Source: a virus
Length of the DNA stretch: 56,702 bases
Strand: one strand, 5' to 3'
IMG/VR virus record: IMGVR_UViG_3300035670_000255
Coordinates: 1-56,702 of that record
The notes below the pieces were generated by a model that was not told the origin of the DNA, made no database searches, and was given only the letters and a program-made list of their open reading frames with translations. The position numbers and the translations under genes were made by a program. Shown here in pieces: positions 12,138-31,412 of the stretch (position 1 is its first letter; each line of letters opens with the position of its first letter).

Positions 12138-12561
12138 ATAGCCAGAAACTATCAGTCGCAAGTGCACACTGATAAAAGGAACCACCAGATATAAGTATGG
12201 GCGGGATTATATATACTATACAACGAATCGACAACCAAACCGAAACGAAATCACAGACCCAAGCCCCCTACACGTACACGAAATTCTCAGAACATTCCAG
12301 CGTTTTACTACCTACTCCTACCCATAGATTCTAACTATTAAGTAGCCCCTTGGTCATAGTTTTTTCCTATCAAGTACCTAGTTAGCGATAGGAAATAACT
12401 ATCGGTGAGAAGTTCTCTCTGATGTAAGTGCTTGATAATCAGGGAGAACAATCCCACTCTAAAATCCCCTCATAGCCAAAACCTATCAACAACTACCAAA
12501 ACCACGCGCCTACGAGACAGCCATCATAGCCAAATCCTATCGGTCGATAGTCAAAACCTAT
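12138..12561 (+). repeat. Seven ATAG-N7-CTAT sites, candidate operators or iterons
   Basis: Identical-spacing partial palindromes start at 12138, 12324, 12356, 12388, 12472, 12526 and 12547, each 15 bp. The best copies (12388, 12547) extend to CGATAG-N7-CTATCG. The centre is often CCAAAAC, CCAAATC or TCAAAAC. Start-to-start distances among the last six are 32, 32, 84, 54 and 21 bp, close to whole helical turns, so bound dimers would lie on one face of the DNA. There is no open frame here. Either a repressor/activator array for the early promoter at 12710 or replication iterons would fit. Confidence 0.65.
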
Positions 12562-12603
12562 CGGGGTCGGAGTTATATTCGCGCCTCTACGTGTGGGTAT
12601 GAC

Positions 12604-12643: not shown

Positions 12644-12717
12644 ATAGTCAATAGTAATTCTAAACGAAATTTATTTGTTTCTCAAATAAATTTCTTAAGA
12701 ATTATTCTATTGACTAT
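12644..12717 (+). repeat. 74-bp imperfect palindrome beside early promoter
   Basis: Left arm 12644-12677 and right arm 12683-12717 are nearly complementary around a 5-base loop (12678-12682). Both outer ends carry ATAGTCAATAG and both inner ends AAATTTATTTG; two small gaps separate these blocks. The right arm contains the TTG (-33) of the promoter at 12710-12742, so a protein bound here or DNA extrusion would affect it. It could also act as an origin stem-loop. Confidence 0.65.
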
Positions 12718-12742
12718 TTCCTACGAGAAAGTCGTACTTTTG
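12710..12742 (+). promoter_or_regulatory. First early promoter
   Basis: TTG 12710-12712, 22-bp spacer, TACTTTTG 12735-12742, then ATG at 12772. The spacer is two bases longer than at other early promoters. It overlaps the large palindrome, suggesting regulation. It would drive 12772 and the amidoligase cassette. Confidence 0.6.
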
Positions 12743-12771: not shown

Positions 12772-13056
12772 ATGGCTAAAGTAAAAAGAAATACTAACTC
12801 TACCTATACTCACGTTAGTAGTCCAAAGATTAGTAGTGTATATCAGGAGAATATATACTATACTCATAAGTTCACTAAGTTCAAAACTAAGTTTCGTACT
12901 AAGTGCTTTGAGACAGGTTCTATACTTGATGCAGGTACTTTTGTTGCCTTTGATACTTTGAGTCGCAAAGTATTTTCTCTTAATAGTTCTACTTATGCTT
13001 ACTACTTGACCTCTATTAGTCGGTCATTTAATGGTCTTAATTGGTCAAGAGTATAA
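12772..13056 (+). CDS. First early gene, hypothetical 94-residue protein
   Basis: Basic, rich in S, T, Y, F and K (MAKVKRNTNSTYTHVSS at the start); about four short strands are predicted. No family recognised. Position right behind the first early promoter suggests expression immediately after entry, as with host-takeover or regulatory proteins, but that is inference. Codons are T-ending and AT-rich, like the next gene and unlike most later genes. Confidence 0.6.
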   Translation: MAKVKRNTNSTYTHVSSPKISSVYQENIYYTHKFTKFKTKFRTKCFETGSILDAGTFVAFDTLSRKVFSLNSSTYAYYLTSISRSFNGLNWSRV

Positions 13057-13129: not shown

Positions 13130-14269
13130 ATGGATAATCTTGTAACCTTGTCTTGTGGTCGTGAAGTAGATGCTTCTGATGCTGTTGAGATTACTTATGG
13201 CTTCCGTCGTGGTACTCTGATTCACGTAGATGACTCTATCTCTACTATTGATGGTGAAGTAGTTCACTCTGATGATGCTTACTATTGTGATGGAGATGGT
13301 GAATACTATGCAGATAGTTCCGACTTAGTTTACGTTAGTGAGGGTAGTTATGATGGCTACTATTTGTCTGATGATGTAGTTTACGCTGAAGATTGTAATG
13401 ACTACTACCACATTGGAGACATTGGTCATTATGTGTTCCAACATTCAGATGGTTGTTACTATACTGAAGAAGAACGTACTGAGCGTTGTCATTCCTACCA
13501 TAGTGGCTATCGTCCTATGTTGACTACTGAAGATACCAAGTTTACTGTGGGCTTCGAGGTAGAGAAAGAAGATGAAGAAGTCCTTGATAATTGGGAATTA
13601 GATGACGTAGACGACACTAAGTGGTCTCGTGAAGAAGATGGTTCCCTTGATGGTTCCTCAGGTTTTGAATTGGTAAGTCCTACCTACGACCTTATGACTG
13701 ATGACTTAGACAATGCTGTTGCTACTGATATTCTCAGTGCTCATATCAATGCTAAGTATTCTGATAATTGTGGTGGTCATATCAACTTTGGTATCAAAGG
13801 TTTGGATGGTCAAGAGGTCTACGATAAGGTAAAAGGGTTTGTTCCTGTGCTGTTGTCGCTGTACCAATCTCGACTACGTAGTCGTTGGTGCCCTGCTAAG
13901 AAGTCCTACGATAATAGTAAGTATAGTGCTGTTGCTATCAAGAGTTCCTACATTGAGTTTCGTGCTCCTTCTGCTGTTATTTCGGTAACTAACTTACTAT
14001 GGCGTAGGGACTTGCTTCGTATTATGGCTTCTAACCTTGACAAGGGTACGCTGTTCTTTATCCGTGAGATGTTGACTCCTACGAGTGCCCTACATAAGCA
14101 CTTGCTCAAGGTGGTGAGTGCTCCTACTATCTACCGACGTGCCGCATTTGCTGCTGCGTTGGCTGAGAAAATGACAGGTACCGACTACGCTAAGTACGTT
14201 AGTGTTGAGGGTTTCGGTAGTGCTGTGGAAGATATGAAATCCCGTGCCGAATCTATGATTCGTGAGTAA
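13130..14269 (+). CDS. Amidoligase (COOH-NH2 ligase) family protein 1
   Basis: 379 residues. Residues 136-280 show the ordered motifs of the Amidoligase_2 family, ATP-dependent enzymes with a glutamine-synthetase-like fold that form amide bonds: GFEVEKE (141-147), REEDGSL (167-173), ELVSP (180-184), CGGHINFG (214-221) and YIEFRAP (274-280). The glutamates and histidine are the expected ATP/metal ligands. Residues 10-125 are acidic, aromatic-rich imperfect repeats (for example YCDGDGEYYADSSDLVYVS) with several Cys and His, perhaps a substrate or peptide-binding region. The C-terminal half shares TNLLWRRDLLRI with the paralogue at 15440. Next to a class II amidotransferase that could supply ammonia. 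Substrate unknown. Ends before a terminator-like hairpin. Confidence 0.82.
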   Translation: MDNLVTLSCGREVDASDAVEITYGFRRGTLIHVDDSISTIDGEVVHSDDAYYCDGDGEYYADSSDLVYVSEGSYDGYYLSDDVVYAEDCNDYYHIGDIGHYVFQHSDGCYYTEEERTERCHSYHSGYRPMLTTEDTKFTVGFEVEKEDEEVLDNWELDDVDDTKWSREEDGSLDGSSGFELVSPTYDLMTDDLDNAVATDILSAHINAKYSDNCGGHINFGIKGLDGQEVYDKVKGFVPVLLSLYQSRLRSRWCPAKKSYDNSKYSAVAIKSSYIEFRAPSAVISVTNLLWRRDLLRIMASNLDKGTLFFIREMLTPTSALHKHLLKVVSAPTIYRRAAFAAALAEKMTGTDYAKYVSVEGFGSAVEDMKSRAESMIRE

Positions 14270-14278
14270 ATTTTAATC

Positions 14279-14318
14279 GGGGCTTGTTGGGTTCTGGACT
14301 TGACAAGCCCCTTATATT
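14279..14318 (+). terminator. Intrinsic terminator-like hairpin after amidoligase 1
   Basis: GGGGCTTGT (14279-14287) pairs perfectly with ACAAGCCCC (14303-14311), followed by TTATATT. The short T run suggests partial termination that lowers expression of the genes behind it. Confidence 0.6.
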
Positions 14319-14326
14319 GTATACGT

Positions 14327-14416
14327 ATGAAAGAAAATGTCCTTCCCCTTCCGATGATTGCTGTTGTGCTGTTCATTGGTATTATCAGCGTGGCTCTTGT
14401 AAGTGCTATCGCCTAA
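14327..14416 (+). CDS. 29-residue single-pass membrane peptide
   Basis: ATG 14327 to TAA 14416. Short polar N-terminus then a continuous hydrophobic segment (PMIAVVLFIGIISVALVSAI). Lies between the amidoligase 1 hairpin and the amidotransferase, with space for its own leader. Expression is unproven; length and context fit a phage micropeptide inserted in the host inner membrane. Confidence 0.4.
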   Translation: MKENVLPLPMIAVVLFIGIISVALVSAIA

Positions 14417-14451
14417 CTATTTGTTTATTAACTATTTAATTCTTGTTTATT

Positions 14452-15390
14452 ATGTGTATTGCAATTCTTAACAAATCAAATCAACTATCTCGTAAGACAC
14501 TCAAAAATTGTTGGGACTCAAATGACGATGGTGCTGGCTTTATGTATGTTCGTGATGGTATTCTCAATGTATTCAAACAGCCAAACACTTCACCTACGGA
14601 CTTCGATGCGCTGTACCTTGCCTACGCTACTGCCTTCAAGCACCGCGACAAGCACACCCCTATGGTACTGCACTTCCGTATTGCTACCCACGGAATGACC
14701 ACTGAGTTTCTGCATCCCTTCCTTGTCTCTGATACTCTTGGTTTTGTTCACAATGGTATCCTTGCTGGGCTTGGTACTCACGAGTACTCAGACACTGCCT
14801 TCCTACGTGATATGTTGCGTGAGTTACCTACGCCTATGACCGATAATGTTCAGGGCTTGGTCGGCACTCAGATTATGCTTGCGATGCTCCACAAGTTCAT
14901 AGGTGCGGGTAACAAACTAATCTTCTTAGATAATACTGGCGACTTCGAGATTGTCAACGAGGAAGCGGGTATGTGGGAAGATGGTAATTGGTTCTCTAAT
15001 TCTTCCTACAAAGAGCGTGGTGTACGCTACTACGGCTCCTACGCTATGTACGACTACGACAAGCCGTGGTCTGATGGTGCCTACGGCGCTAAGTCAACAG
15101 CCAAACTATCAAGCAAGAGTCAAGCGTACTACGATGACCTTGATGCACTTGAGGAAGCCGAATGGAACAAGTCCTTTGATGCTCAGGATAAGACCGTACT
15201 CGTTGAGGTTGAGAATCTTAGCCCTTTGATTGAAGCCCACGAGGTTATTGATGTGAAGGCACATTGTAGTTCCTGCGACAAAGACACCTACGTAACTATG
15301 TATGCGGAGTGTAGCGAGTGCGGTGCCTACAACATTAAGGCTGAGTCTGCTGTCATTGCTTGGCAGGACACCAATGGTCTTGTATTGTAA
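14452..15390 (+). CDS. Class II glutamine amidotransferase (Ntn hydrolase) with zinc ribbon
   Basis: 312 residues from ATG 14452. A start nine bases upstream is rejected because the enzyme needs Cys2 free at the N-terminus (MCIAIL) after Met removal. Further GATase II motifs: NDDGAGF (24-30), HFRIATHG (74-81), HPF (88-90) and VHNGIL (99-104), which position glutamine and form the oxyanion hole. It would hydrolyse glutamine to ammonia, or amidate directly, for the flanking amidoligases. The C-terminal ~60 residues add a zinc ribbon, C272/C275 and C287/C290, an unusual extra that may bind a protein or nucleic-acid partner. Cytoplasmic. Confidence 0.85.
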   Translation: MCIAILNKSNQLSRKTLKNCWDSNDDGAGFMYVRDGILNVFKQPNTSPTDFDALYLAYATAFKHRDKHTPMVLHFRIATHGMTTEFLHPFLVSDTLGFVHNGILAGLGTHEYSDTAFLRDMLRELPTPMTDNVQGLVGTQIMLAMLHKFIGAGNKLIFLDNTGDFEIVNEEAGMWEDGNWFSNSSYKERGVRYYGSYAMYDYDKPWSDGAYGAKSTAKLSSKSQAYYDDLDALEEAEWNKSFDAQDKTVLVEVENLSPLIEAHEVIDVKAHCSSCDKDTYVTMYAECSECGAYNIKAESAVIAWQDTNGLVL

Positions 15391-15439
15391 TTGTTTGATT
15401 TCTAATTGTTTAACTTGTCTAATTTAATTTAATTGTTTT

Positions 15440-16942
15440 ATGGAATTTATCGATGTAAATGTTCGTGCTTGGTTCAATCTCCACAATGGGTTCCGTGGTT
15501 ACGCTATGGATGAGCCGTACCTAACTACCTACAACGGATTGCTACACAACCACCTGCGTGACATAGAGTATGGCCGTGCTGACAGCGACGTGTTCAGCAT
15601 TCTATTTACAGGTACATCCTACGGACTTAATGGCGAGATGCGTACTGAAATCAACAACTCTTGGGGCAATCAAGGCAACCAAGAGGGGCGTGTCTACGGA
15701 TTCAACGACAGCGATGACCAAAATGGTGGCCGTGTTTCTCTTAGCAATAACTATAATGGCCGCGACCTTATGGCTCCGTGGCAGGCATTGTCTGAGACCT
15801 ACGGCAAACCAGTGGTGTTTTGGTTTGACAATTCGTGGTCTCCTACTGGTACTTGGGCAGGTATACGCCACGATGCCCCGCGTTCTACGTGGGAAGCATT
15901 CAACCTTGCTGTGTACGATGCCAACCGACAGAGTAGGGGTGAGGCATACAAGTACATCGCCGACAACCTCTCATTATTAATGGATGGTATTGAGTTATCT
16001 AAGCCTGATGTTGAGGCTTGGTTTAGCACCTACGAGGAGCGCGAGGCACAGCGACTACGTGAGGAGCGTGAGCGCCGCGCTATTGCGCGTATCGAGAACG
16101 CTCCCTATGTTGCTGACTACCACGAAGGTGCACGGCACGGAGAGCAACGACCTTCCTACGTGGGTAAGGATACGCTGTTCTCTGTTGGCTTCGAGGTTGA
16201 GAAGGAGGACTATGATGTCAAGACTTCAATCAACAACGTCAAGTTCAATATGGCTACGGGTTGGGATAAGGAGCGCGATGGTTCCTTGAACGATGACGGC
16301 TATGAGATTGTGTCTCCTACGTACGACCTGTACGACGACAGACTTGACCAAGACCTGAAGATTGATATTCTTCGTGAGCATATTGACGGCGACTACTCCA
16401 AGCGTTGCGGTGGACACATCCACTTGGGTGCTGTGGGTATGACTGGCCGTACGTTCTTCGACCGCTTTGCTCCGTGGTTGCCTCTTATGTACGCTGTCTA
16501 CGTTGGCCGCATCAATGGCGAACACTGCAAGGTTAAGAAGAACGATGACCTTAAGTTCTCGTCCGACAAGTATCAATCTGTCCGTTTGTTTGACAACCGC
16601 ATTGAACTGCGTATCCCTTCTGCTGTGTCTGACACTACTAACTTGCTGTGGCGGCGTGACTTGCTCCGCATTATCTGCGACAACCTTGATGCTACTCCCC
16701 TACGTATCGTGAGTATGCTTACAGACAAGCGTAGTCGCCTCTACAAGCATATGTCTAAGGTGTATGATGCTAAGCGTATGCAAGAGAAACTACAACTCTA
16801 TGTGTACTTCGCCAATGAAATCCTTGACGATGCCTACACTATGATACCTGAGCGTATCCCTACGTGGGAGAAGATGTTCAACAAATCTCAAATCTCTCAC
16901 CTTCGTAACCACGGCTTCCGCCAGAAGTCTTTAACTATCTAA
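15440..16942 (+). CDS. Amidoligase (COOH-NH2 ligase) family protein 2
   Basis: 500 residues. Amidoligase motifs in order: GFEVEKE (250-256), KERDGSL (277-283), EIVSP (289-293), CGGHIHLG (323-330) and IELRIPS (388-394), then the shared TNLLWRRDLLRI. Clearly a paralogue of the gene at 13130, but the N-terminal 1-240 is different: an unrecognised globular region rich in W, Y and N, then a charged helix around 198-220 (EEREAQRLREERERR). The two ligases may therefore see different substrates or partners while sharing one amidotransferase. It uses more C/G-ending codons than amidoligase 1, so the two copies have separate recent histories. Confidence 0.82.
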   Translation: MEFIDVNVRAWFNLHNGFRGYAMDEPYLTTYNGLLHNHLRDIEYGRADSDVFSILFTGTSYGLNGEMRTEINNSWGNQGNQEGRVYGFNDSDDQNGGRVSLSNNYNGRDLMAPWQALSETYGKPVVFWFDNSWSPTGTWAGIRHDAPRSTWEAFNLAVYDANRQSRGEAYKYIADNLSLLMDGIELSKPDVEAWFSTYEEREAQRLREERERRAIARIENAPYVADYHEGARHGEQRPSYVGKDTLFSVGFEVEKEDYDVKTSINNVKFNMATGWDKERDGSLNDDGYEIVSPTYDLYDDRLDQDLKIDILREHIDGDYSKRCGGHIHLGAVGMTGRTFFDRFAPWLPLMYAVYVGRINGEHCKVKKNDDLKFSSDKYQSVRLFDNRIELRIPSAVSDTTNLLWRRDLLRIICDNLDATPLRIVSMLTDKRSRLYKHMSKVYDAKRMQEKLQLYVYFANEILDDAYTMIPERIPTWEKMFNKSQISHLRNHGFRQKSLTI

Positions 16943-19107: not shown

Positions 19108-19312
19108 GGCGGAAATTGCTGTTCTCCCTCACGATATGGACTACAGCGTTGGTATGAAGCGCATCGACTACGTTCTTGAGCGTGGTGAGCGTATTGGCGT
19201 GATTGACAATGCTGTTGTCTACGCTACAAAGAGGTATAGCCTTGCGCTATTCGATGAGAATGCTTTTCTCTACGACAAGTACAACTTAGTCCTACATAGC
19301 ATCACTCTGTAA
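19064..19312 (+). CDS. Hypothetical protein, 82 residues
   Basis: Overlaps the preceding coiled-coil gene by 44 bases and the next gene by one base (TAATG). Alternating strands (RIDYVLERGERIGVID, AVVYATKRYSLALF) suggest a small beta domain. No family recognised. Confidence 0.5.
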   Translation: MNNPLSTLPIAKSAKAEIAVLPHDMDYSVGMKRIDYVLERGERIGVIDNAVVYATKRYSLALFDENAFLYDKYNLVLHSITL

Positions 19313-19857
19313 TGCTGTTTACTTATGATAAGAATGCTGTCCTGTACCGCAAGGTTCGGTATGGGCGGCTTCTTCTCTTCCTCAGTGGTTGGACAGCCCT
19401 AACAATGTTGTCTACGTTTGTATTGAGGTATGAGGAGGATTTGTATGAGCGCATCGTAAACGTCTACCTACACGAGCCACAGTTCTCTGAGGAACGGCTT
19501 ATCGCCAAACTCAAGCAACTCAATGTTCGGTATCCGCATATTGCTCTTGCTCAGGCACGTATCGAGTCTGGAAATTATCGTTCTACGATTTTTTTAGAGA
19601 ACAATAATCTGTTTGGTATGAAACAGGCTAAGTCTCGGATTAACTTAGCCGCAGGAACAAAACGTGGTCACGCTTACTATGAGAAGTGGGAGGACAGCGT
19701 TCTTGACTACGCCTACTGGTGTGCTACGTATGCCAACAAGTGTAGGAACGAGGATGACTTCTATAACCTTCTGTCTACTTATGCGGAGGCTAACTACTAC
19801 GAGAGTGCCCTACGTAAGACTATTGAAGTTAACGACCTTAAATCTAAATTCAAATGA
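19312..19857 (+). CDS. Membrane-anchored glucosaminidase-like protein
   Basis: 181 residues. Positively charged N-terminus, then one membrane segment at about 19-38 (RLLLFLSGWTALTMLSTFVL), then a periplasmic domain of the glucosaminidase (lysozyme-like) family: ALAQARIESGNYRST with the expected catalytic glutamate E85, NNLFGMK (98-104) and YYEKWEDSVLDYAYW. Such enzymes cut the glycan chain of peptidoglycan. The weakly hydrophobic anchor with G, S and T resembles signal-anchor-release endolysins. Being in the early block, far from the M15 endolysin, it may remodel the wall or block superinfection rather than lyse. Coupled to both neighbours by overlaps. Confidence 0.7.
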   Translation: MLFTYDKNAVLYRKVRYGRLLLFLSGWTALTMLSTFVLRYEEDLYERIVNVYLHEPQFSEERLIAKLKQLNVRYPHIALAQARIESGNYRSTIFLENNNLFGMKQAKSRINLAAGTKRGHAYYEKWEDSVLDYAYWCATYANKCRNEDDFYNLLSTYAEANYYESALRKTIEVNDLKSKFK

Positions 19858-28789: not shown

Positions 28790-28808
28790 GGAATACCACA
28801 AAGAATGA
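28596..28808 (+). CDS. Helical protein overprinted on rusA-like tail
   Basis: 70 residues in a different frame, covering 194 bases of the RusA-like gene and ending with an ATGA overlap to the glycosyltransferase start. It reads as a well-formed amphipathic helix (QQFFLAAEMIHQATTNLFEQ, EELSGVREAIKEYHKE), more protein-like than the basic tail it overlaps. Its 3' coupling to the next gene supports it being real. Function unknown. Confidence 0.55.
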   Translation: MTEQRLSQQFFLAAEMIHQATTNLFEQLHNGQGRPLHDREQVEKILQKYQTALREELSGVREAIKEYHKE

Positions 28809-29767
28809 TAAATTTAATTCACATCGGAGACCTTGGTGGAATCAACTACCATAGGTTGATAGTCCCATTGCGCAGACTGCAATCACAGGGTGTTAATCTT
28901 CATTGGATTCAGTCACTTTCTGAACTCAAGGATATAAATCTTGATTTAGTAGATAACCTTATAGTTTCTAGAAAGGTTTCGGTAAACAATCACAAGGAGT
29001 TTAGCCGTATGCTAAAGAAGCACGGAGTACGCTTAATTCTTGATAACGATGACTACTGGGTGCTGAACCCAGAGAATCCAGCAAGAAAGTTATACGAGAC
29101 GTATTATGGACCAGACATTAAAAAGACAATCAAGATTGCTGATGTAATCTGGACTCCATCTACGTATTTAGCTAAACTGATGCAGGATGAGAATCCAAAA
29201 GCAACCATTGAATTTGTAAACAATGCAATCGACACTACAGAACAACAATGGGCCGAGCAATCCAAACGACGTTCTTCTACTGTTCGCTTTGGCTATGTTG
29301 GTGCTCTGGCTCATATACACGACGTCAAATCTATAGGATACGACTTCTCTAAAGTCTACACGTTTGGTGTGGAGGGGATGGAGTACGACGACATTTTAAA
29401 ATACGACAAGACATCGCCACCAAGAGATATTTGGAACTATGGAGAGCTGTATAAAGAGTTTGATGTTAGCCTTGTGCCGCTAGTAGGAAACAGATTTAAT
29501 TGGAGCAAGAGCGACCTTAAGATTACTGAGGCAGCAGCAACAAATACTGCTGTAATAGCCTCAAATACAAAGCCTTACAGTTCAACAATCATCCACGGAG
29601 AGACTGGTCTTCTAGCATCTAATCCAGAAGAATGGGCAGATTGTATTGAAATGATGGATAAAAAGCTAGCTAAGAAACTTGCAAGTAATCTGTATGAATC
29701 ATTGAAGGATTCGCCAGACCATAACCTCGATTTGGTAAACCAAAAGAGACTTAAATATTTAGTATGA
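28805..29767 (+). CDS. GT-B glycosyltransferase (family 4-like)
   Basis: 320 residues. N-terminal Rossmann half starts INLIHIGDLGGINYHRLIVP. The C-terminal half has the GT4 donor-binding pattern KSDLKITEAAATNTAVIA (glutamate in K-I-T-E-A) and HGETGLLASNPEEWADCI. Predicted to transfer a sugar from a nucleotide donor. It is followed by DUF3431 and UDP-galactopyranose mutase genes with four-base or one-base overlaps, so the donor may be UDP-galactofuranose and the acceptor a virion or host glycan. No membrane segment. Confidence 0.8.
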   Translation: MINLIHIGDLGGINYHRLIVPLRRLQSQGVNLHWIQSLSELKDINLDLVDNLIVSRKVSVNNHKEFSRMLKKHGVRLILDNDDYWVLNPENPARKLYETYYGPDIKKTIKIADVIWTPSTYLAKLMQDENPKATIEFVNNAIDTTEQQWAEQSKRRSSTVRFGYVGALAHIHDVKSIGYDFSKVYTFGVEGMEYDDILKYDKTSPPRDIWNYGELYKEFDVSLVPLVGNRFNWSKSDLKITEAAATNTAVIASNTKPYSSTIIHGETGLLASNPEEWADCIEMMDKKLAKKLASNLYESLKDSPDHNLDLVNQKRLKYLV

Positions 29768-30330
29768 TTGATTTAGTTGTAGCCTCTTACAAGGAAGATG
29801 TTTCTTGGATAAGTAAAACAAATGCAAACGTATGCCTTTACGATAAAGGAGAAAGAGGCATTGGAATCCCATTAGAAAACATTGGTCGCGAGGCACATAC
29901 TTACGTCCACCACATTGTAGAAAACTACAAGAACCTACCAGAGTGGACAGCGTTTGTTCAGGGCAATCCGTTTGACCACGCACCACACGTTCTCACTCTA
30001 ATCAATGACTTCGAAAAGATTTCTGGAGACAACAAGAAGGAGAAGTTTTACTTTCTAGGAAGGTCAATTGTTCAGTGCGACATCAATGGACTTCCTCACC
30101 ACGGAGGTCTTGACTTGGCTGGATTCCAAATAGCGCTGTTCGATAAGATTGCACAGATGGATATGATGTTTGTAGCTGGAGCTCAGTTCATTGTGCATCG
30201 GGACCTTATCAAGAACAAGAAGCTAGCATTCTGGAAACGGATGCTCAAGACATTTGAGGGAGACAGCTATCCAGATGCCCCTTGGTGTGCCGAGCGCTTG
30301 TGGACCTACATCTTCAACTACCACAAGTAA
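29764..30330 (+). CDS. DUF3431-like protein, possible glycan enzyme
   Basis: 188 residues. Opens IDLVVASYKEDVSWI, then NIGREAHTYVHHIVENYKNL, WTAFVQGNPFDH and GAQFIVHRDLI, ending ERLWTYIF. This order is that of DUF3431, a family found in sugar-modification clusters and suspected to be glycosyltransferase-like. Placed between a glycosyltransferase and UDP-galactopyranose mutase, with overlaps of four and one bases, so co-translated. Confidence 0.78.
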   Translation: MIDLVVASYKEDVSWISKTNANVCLYDKGERGIGIPLENIGREAHTYVHHIVENYKNLPEWTAFVQGNPFDHAPHVLTLINDFEKISGDNKKEKFYFLGRSIVQCDINGLPHHGGLDLAGFQIALFDKIAQMDMMFVAGAQFIVHRDLIKNKKLAFWKRMLKTFEGDSYPDAPWCAERLWTYIFNYHK

Positions 30331-31412
30331 TGTACGATTTTCTGATTGTAGGTGCAGGGCTGTACGGAAGCGTTTGTGCACGCGAGCTTACAGACAAAGG
30401 TTATAACGTTTTAGTTATAGACAAGCGCCCACACATTGGCGGCAACTGCTATACCTCACGTCAGAAGGGCATCGATGTCCACGTTTATGGTCCTCACATC
30501 TTCCACACATCCAACGAAGAGGTGTGGGAATACGTAAACAGATTTGCTAACTTTGAGCCGTACAAGTTTAGCCCAGTTGCCAACTACCTCGGCGAGCTGT
30601 TCTCTCTTCCGTTTAATCTTTGGACATTCAAGCAGGTTTACAACCTAAGCACACCCCAAGAGGTTAAGCAGAAGCTTGAGGAGATGAAAAAGTTCGACGA
30701 GCCAAAGAACCTTGAGGAGGTAGCCATCAACTCCATCGGTTGGCTGATGTACCAAAAATTGGTATACGGATACACCAAGAAGCAGTGGATGAGAGAGCCA
30801 AAGGAACTTCCTGCTGAAATCATCAAGCGACTTCCTGTACGTCTTACCTTCGACAACAACTACTTCAACGACAAGTATCAGGGCATACCTGTTGGCGGAT
30901 ACACCAGCATATTCGAACAGCTACTTGATGGCATCGAGCTCGAGCTTGGCGTAGACTTTAAGATGACCCACCACCGCATCAAGGCAAAGAACATCATCTA
31001 CACTGGTAAGATTGATGAGCTGTTCGACTATGATTACGGAGACCTTGACTACAGAAGCCTACGCTTTGAGCAGAAGACCTACCAGACCGACAACCATCAG
31101 GGCACTGCTGTGATAAACTACACCGACGACGTGACGAAGTTCACTCGTTCAATTGAGCACCGACACTTTGTTCGCAACGTAGACTCTGACGTTACGATTG
31201 TGACCAAAGAGTACCCATCGGAATACTTCCGAGGTGCCGAACCATACTACCCCGTTGACACTACACAAAACAGAATCAGGTACACCCAATACAAAGCAGC
31301 AGCAGACGCAGTTGATGGGCTACATCTTGGTGGACGATTGGCGGAGTACAAGTACTACGATATGCACCAAGTGATTGCTAGCGCTCTAGCTTTTTGTAAG
31401 AAGTGGGATTAA
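30330..31412 (+). CDS. glf: UDP-galactopyranose mutase
   Basis: 360 residues from ATG 30330 (TAATG with the previous gene). FAD-binding Rossmann GAGLYGSVCARELTDKGYNV (8-27) followed by VIDKRPHIGGNC. Family motifs YGPHIFHTSNEEVW and GYTKKQWMREP, and a C-terminal HLGGRLAEYKYYDMHQ that contacts FAD. The enzyme interconverts UDP-galactopyranose and UDP-galactofuranose using reduced FAD. Full length. Galactofuranose is a wall and capsule sugar, so the phage may modify its own fibres or the host surface. Last gene of the rightward operon; its end overlaps a leftward gene by four bases with no terminator. Confidence 0.93.
   Translation: MYDFLIVGAGLYGSVCARELTDKGYNVLVIDKRPHIGGNCYTSRQKGIDVHVYGPHIFHTSNEEVWEYVNRFANFEPYKFSPVANYLGELFSLPFNLWTFKQVYNLSTPQEVKQKLEEMKKFDEPKNLEEVAINSIGWLMYQKLVYGYTKKQWMREPKELPAEIIKRLPVRLTFDNNYFNDKYQGIPVGGYTSIFEQLLDGIELELGVDFKMTHHRIKAKNIIYTGKIDELFDYDYGDLDYRSLRFEQKTYQTDNHQGTAVINYTDDVTKFTRSIEHRHFVRNVDSDVTIVTKEYPSEYFRGAEPYYPVDTTQNRIRYTQYKAAADAVDGLHLGGRLAEYKYYDMHQVIASALAFCKKWD

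Follow-up and report, generated by a model that had tools for sequence, protein, structure and literature searches.

Why would a phage place two different amide-forming ligases on either side of a single glutamine amidotransferase? The question is raised by IMG/VR record IMGVR_UViG_3300035670_000255, a virus record of 56,702 bases analysed here at full length (the window), which comes from an uncultivated tailed virus of Bacteroidota bacteria. Genes for amidoligases and amidotransferases have repeatedly been listed in phages as wall-modifying or nitrogen-metabolism genes; in the group described here, the two enzymes are inseparable partners. A sequence-only reading of the window had proposed a cassette in which two amidoligases flank one class II (Ntn) glutamine amidotransferase, and all three open reading frames (ORFs) are indeed present on the + strand (Table 1). 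The comparisons below indicate that the cassette is real and functional-looking, with chemistry that appears well constrained, more so than the substrate. Our reading, to which we give not quite an even chance, is a glutamine-fed amidation system in which two ligases act on two carboxylates, most likely in the cell envelope.

Sequence and predicted fold of the ligases

Both ligases contain the motifs GFEVEKE, DGSL and CGGHI, and the amidotransferase contains Cys2, HFRIATHG and HNG, as the sequence-only reading had claimed. The two cores show 40% identity (E=7e-51; ligase 1 aa 124-348 against ligase 2 aa 233-461), whereas the regions N-terminal to them cannot be aligned; this bears out its description of a common core behind unrelated N-termini. 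For the N-terminus of ligase 1, descent from a zinc ribbon or LIM domain was considered and rejected, as near relatives do not have the CxxC pattern.

Residues G141, E143, E145, D170, S172, E180, H217, R248, E276 and R278 of ligase 1 are invariant across 46 aligned sequences, as are G250, E252, E254, D280, S282, E289, H326, R357, E389 and R391 of ligase 2 across 39. Both proteins thus have the residues that phage amidoligases with the glutamine synthetase (GS) fold conserve (GxExE, DGS, E-x-S, H, ExR), and distant phage amidoligases keep most of the ligase 1 invariants (GxExE, E180, H217, R248 and E276 without exception).

The predicted structure of ligase 1 has a mean pLDDT of 95.8; that of ligase 2 has a core at about 95 and a poorly modelled N-terminus. 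In Foldseek searches of the PDB, the top matches of both models were mostly glutamine synthetases, gamma-glutamylmethylamide synthetase and YbdK, with a few aspartate-kinase chains also among them and PafA/Dop lower down. Matches in BFVD were full of phage amidoligases, including named ones of phages tf, CW02 and phi14:2. Structure predictions and structure matches agree with the amidoligase assignment that had been proposed, and both ligases probably belong to the glutamine-synthetase superfamily.

Matches to family profiles were weaker. In single-sequence Pfam searches, ligase 2 matched Amidoligase_2 (PF12224) at E=0.018, below the gathering score, and ligase 1 had no Amidoligase_2 match; PHROG matches were also weak, and a ligase profile run against PDB sequences gave a single match, weak and unrelated. 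A missing Amidoligase_2 match had been named beforehand as an argument against the assignment, and this applies in half. The assignment nevertheless stands because of the fold, the motifs and the significant matches of distant relatives: 9/18 aligned relatives match Amidoligase_2, the best of them, among the distant relatives, at 4.8e-9.

The PafA/Dop matches also bear on a different proposal, in which the cassette would amidate or tag host proteins or defence factors, with PafA-type GS-fold ligases as the model. That the cassette opens the presumed early block and is accessory (it is absent from the Elemovirus genome checked) would suit such a role. However, no tag protein, protease or defence link was found nearby, and pupylation has no glutaminase partner. 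Our literature search found no paper on an anti-defence role of amidoligases, and we consider host-protein modification distinctly unlikely. The takeover or anti-defence job suggested by the sequence-only reading gains no support from the data, which do not decide against it either.

The amidotransferase and a membrane micro-ORF

Residues C2, R76, T79, H88, N101, G102 and D114 are invariant in 15 amidotransferases, including Marvin gp106 and MEP402 gp07, and the glutamine-site residues (Arg, Asn-Gly, Asp) are kept out to distant phages. By itself the window's protein matches GATase_6 weakly (E=0.08); 12/15 of the relatives match this family (best 2.5e-14), and the amidotransferase profile reaches 4e-11 against the glutaminase domain of GlmS. 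The sequence evidence supports an intact class II glutamine amidotransferase, in line with the earlier claim. The extra zinc ribbon ascribed to this protein is retained as a candidate: four C-terminal cysteines (C272, C275, C287 and C290, at about 15265-15321) are invariant or nearly so in ten near relatives, a pattern that would suit zinc binding.

A predicted micro-ORF separates ligase 1 from the amidotransferase. Others of the same length and place occur in three related loci, L002 (9153-9242), L011 (6947-7036) and L012 (6933-7022), and a comparable micro-ORF arises in 3-6 of 1000 shuffles per locus. The more distant two-ligase phages do not have it. In another two-ligase subgroup, a conserved 43-aa transmembrane ORF follows soon after ligase 2 (L003 11949; L028 5380; L071 9601).

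Linkage of the two enzymes across viruses

We surveyed viral sequences with two independent scans, one using a ligase profile and one an amidotransferase profile, and dereplicated the results (loci labelled L and a number). Among the 79 cassettes found, 62 have the order ligase-amidotransferase, 10 ligase-amidotransferase-ligase and one ligase-amidotransferase-ligase-amidotransferase; the remainder comprise one in reverse order, one with a split ligase reading frame, and four with a single partner and a contig end within 60 nt. In every intact cassette (75/75) the two genes share a strand, and the ligase nearly always comes first. The conservation expected in related phages is seen for the pair throughout and for the two-ligase form within one clade and in L070. 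The gap is 10 nt or less in 37 of the 62 single-ligase pairs. In three single-ligase loci the two genes stand 1.3-1.8 kb apart; in most others they touch. No single-chain fusion of ligase and amidotransferase was seen among the surveyed cassettes. A second, diverged amidotransferase follows ligase 2 in L007 (11324-12403).

Among relatives of 52-70% identity, pN is about 0.22-0.34 and pS 0.54-0.80; by this sequence measure, both ligases are under purifying selection. Because pN lies below pS and the linkage holds in every intact cassette, the cassette is more than a chance arrangement.

The pair is also present in named phages: Marvin, MEP402, ctgrD200 and ctfjg026. Mycobacterium phage Marvin (gp105-gp106) and Methylophilales phages MEP401/402 (gp06-gp07 in MEP402) resemble the window in that the ligase immediately precedes the amidotransferase on the same strand, and in their catalytic motifs, but they have one ligase, at about 17-19% identity to the window's, and other N-terminal domains. 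The podovirus ctfjg026 (MW202828) has the closest annotated backbone (terminase 48% identity) and also a ligase-amidotransferase pair, although with a single ligase and with the amidotransferase fused to a gamma-glutamyl cyclotransferase (GGCT) domain.

Direct tblastn with either ligase gave no match in 50,697 phage records. A ligase scan of 84,980 prokaryote genomes yielded no confirmed relative, and the amidotransferase scan of the same genomes gave two matches, one of them credible. A contig binned as a Lokiarchaeota metagenome-assembled genome (MAG) carries its own ligase-amidotransferase pair (L176 4693-6831) and is probably viral. In an Oscillospiraceae MAG (L177 544-2310), EF-G domains are joined to an amidotransferase C-terminus; we judged this a probable assembly chimera.

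Such phage-specific enzymes are unlike typical host-derived metabolic genes, which speaks against an auxiliary metabolic role, in which nitrogen from glutamine or ammonia would be redirected into an amino-acid-like metabolite for phage production. The elaborate N-terminal domains of the two paralogues also suggest larger substrates. This role has already been proposed for phage ZRK32, which carries an amidoligase, an amidotransferase, a GGCT and a glutathione-synthase-like gene (PMC10945688); for the present cassette we find it quite improbable.

The distribution of GGCT genes raises another alternative, namely that the ligases make amides (gamma-glutamyl or peptide) on a metabolite or wall peptide, while the Ntn enzyme breaks down or edits these amides and donates no ammonia. 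Two separate loci encode amidotransferase-GGCT fusions (L022 5004-6218 and L093 8058-9134), and in several single-ligase relatives a separate GGCT gene follows 5-7 kb downstream. The action of GGACT enzymes on gamma-glutamyl amines likewise counts for such editing. The amidotransferase has also been assigned to peptidoglycan degradation (PMC5498523). On the other side, the glutamine-binding residues of GlmS/PurF (Arg, Asn-Gly, Asp) are invariant, a single amidotransferase serves two ligases, and a search of the window revealed no GGCT gene. We therefore regard amide editing as unlikely.

Origin and divergence of the second ligase

A tree of 68 ligase cores groups the ligases that follow the amidotransferase in this virus and its relatives into one clade (support 100/94), while their ligase 1 copies fall in another (99/99). 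The two ligases of L070 are sisters, so the flanking arrangement arose there independently. On this evidence the two-ligase form is characteristic of one clade of Bacteroidota podoviruses and had at least one further origin, in L070. Eleven positions set the ligase 1 clade apart from the ligase 2 clade; in the alignment, HxH of ligase 2 corresponds to HxN/G/S/A in ligase 1.

Could the second ligase simply be a redundant duplicate with no distinct role? It is paralogous to ligase 1, and 62/79 cassettes manage with a single ligase. However, it has stayed beside the amidotransferase through deep divergence with its catalytic residues intact, it has clade-specific positions and is under purifying selection, and a second ligase arose independently in L070. 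We consider redundancy very improbable; the divergence and purifying selection suggest two substrates instead.

An amidoligase beside a class II amidotransferase is not new in itself. The combination has been annotated in LUZ24-like, RIO-1-like, OM43 and mycobacterial phages, with proposed roles in peptidoglycan modification, superinfection exclusion, readying the wall for lysis and nitrogen metabolism (PMC3890496, PMC5498523, PMC10580990, PMC11945000, PMC10945688); for MEP401/402, PF12224 and PF13522 were named (PMC10580990). The novelty implied by the sequence-only reading is therefore narrower than it seemed, although the second, paralogous ligase is unusual, and neither the two-ligase form nor the 75/75 linkage is described in the literature examined. 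The unit is compact, with three genes, and a comparison of one-ligase and two-ligase cassettes with their defined clade-specific residues makes the substrate question testable in vitro.

Possible chemistry and target

In the glutamine-fed system that we favour, the Ntn enzyme would hydrolyse glutamine and supply ammonia, and each GS-fold ligase would activate a carboxylate with ATP (via an acyl phosphate, like glutamine synthetase) and form the amide. Both ligases would draw on the one ammonia donor, and their different N-terminal domains and diverged pocket residues would recognise two different carboxylates. The likeliest setting is the cell envelope, where amidation of a stem peptide or peptidoglycan precursor soon after infection might alter lysin or receptor susceptibility (superinfection exclusion) or prepare the cell for lysis.

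Glutamine synthetase, gamma-glutamylmethylamide synthetase and YbdK remotely share the catalytic fold of the ligases and the order of the conserved acidic, His and Arg residues but, to our knowledge, enzymes of the glutamine synthetase type are not fed by a separate class II amidotransferase. MurT-GatD combines a Mur-ligase fold with a class I amidotransferase. As a two-protein system for glutamine-dependent amidation of the wall peptide (peptidoglycan D-Glu), it would work alike (PMC3267633), by analogy rather than homology. A fuller version of our proposal is a phage-specific two-substrate machine, in which two paralogous GS-fold ligases, one class II glutaminase subunit and a small membrane protein would amidate two envelope-precursor carboxylates. 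We regard this version as doubtful; we know of no described type of glutamine-dependent amidotransferase in which a GS-fold ligase is fed by a separate class II amidotransferase.

The cell envelope is our best guess for the target. In L086, L088 and L092 the amidotransferase is followed after 3-7 nt by a peptidoglycan hydrolase gene, and in other loci with such a gene, the window included, it lies 0.8-3.3 kb downstream of the cassette. The transmembrane micro-ORF within the cassette points the same way, as does the presence of these types of enzyme in modules proposed to act on peptidoglycan (PMC3890496, PMC5498523, PMC11945000). The "peptidoglycan modification" cassettes of LUZ24-, RIO-1- and phiEco32-like phages (UFV-P2, tf, PSA-HP1) share an early-region amidoligase (PF12224) and class II amidotransferase (PF13522) with the window (PMC3890496, PMC5498523), and the tf amidoligase is a fold match; "early" is said of the window by position. 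In addition, those cassettes have genes for a COOH-NH2 ligase, ATP-grasp and GGCT; a search of the window revealed none of these.

Several points weigh against this glutamine-fed, envelope-directed system. Because free ammonia can serve GS-fold enzymes, they do not strictly require a glutaminase of their own, and the Ntn enzyme could instead hydrolyse gamma-glutamyl amides, which the GGCT fusions of L022 and L093 would also fit. That no GGCT or ATP-grasp gene, as in the classical peptidoglycan module, turned up in the window counts here too. The envelope link is weak because many phages carry peptidoglycan hydrolases and small membrane ORFs. Global TM-scores of the ligase models to PDB entries are low (about 0.2-0.35), and the roles of the conserved residues as GS metal and ATP ligands are predicted from motif order and fold. 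The papers examined give no tested substrate for a phage amidoligase or amidotransferase, and their examples do not demonstrate action on peptidoglycan.

Transcription signals and gene neighbourhood

Table 1. Positions of the cassette genes and nearby features in the window.
Feature	Position	Strand	Remarks
Imperfect long inverted repeat and -7 box	12644-12742	+	Presumed start of rightward early transcript, by sequence
94-aa protein	12772-13056	+	Function not assigned; first gene after promoter; adjoins ligase 1 also in L002, L011 and L012
Ligase 1, 379 aa	13130-14269	+	N-terminal beta-hairpin domain at about aa 1-125; predicted GS-fold amidoligase core at about aa 131-350
Terminator-like hairpin 3' of ligase 1	14279-14311	+	Overlaps CTTGACAARCCCCTTATATTGTATA
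29-aa single-transmembrane micro-ORF	14327-14416	+	MKENVLPLPMIAVVLFIGIISVALVSAIA; predicted ORF between ligase 1 and amidotransferase
Class II (Ntn) glutamine amidotransferase, 312 aa	14452-15390	+	ORF 14443-15390; conserved start ATG 14452, giving Met-Cys
Ligase 2, 500 aa	15440-16942	+	N-terminal region of about 235 aa; predicted GS-fold amidoligase core at about aa 240-461
Glucosaminidase-domain (peptidoglycan hydrolase) protein	19312-19857	+	N-terminal hydrophobic segment; neighbour of cassette

The cassette had been placed right behind the first early promoter. A Bacteroidota-type promoter does appear to lie upstream, but a conserved 94-aa gene stands between it and the first ligase, and the cassette thus does not come first. 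The inverted repeat (12644-12717) has arms of about 34 nt with indels and abuts the -7 box TACTTTTG (12735-12742). L011 and L012 show paired changes in the repeat, and their box is TATCTTTG. Matches to TANNTTTGC across the whole window are not above chance, and we therefore treat the promoter as putative; judged by position, the cassette belongs to the early gene block. The inverted repeat is a possible regulatory hairpin or operator. It is preceded by four ATAGCCAAAACCTATC-like repeats in the same 1.1-kb divergent non-coding region; these are dyad-like (12138-12562) and may be origin or regulator sites. Downstream of ligase 1, CTTGACAARCCCCTTATATTGTATA (14299-14323) is a unique element that recurs at the same place in L011 and L012, and the overlapping hairpin may split the cassette into two transcripts.

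By sequence comparison, terminase and portal tie the virus to ctfjg026 and to Flavobacterium Elemovirus and Cellulophaga phages. Endolysin, terminase and portal genes lie to the left of the cassette on the - strand, and ERF, nuclease, primase-helicase and RusA-like genes to its right. A DNA-modification pathway was considered and rejected, as no base-modification enzyme could be recognised among the early genes scanned. Genes for a glycosyltransferase, a DUF3431 protein and a UDP-galactopyranose mutase (28805-31412) close the presumed early block and resemble a surface-sugar module.

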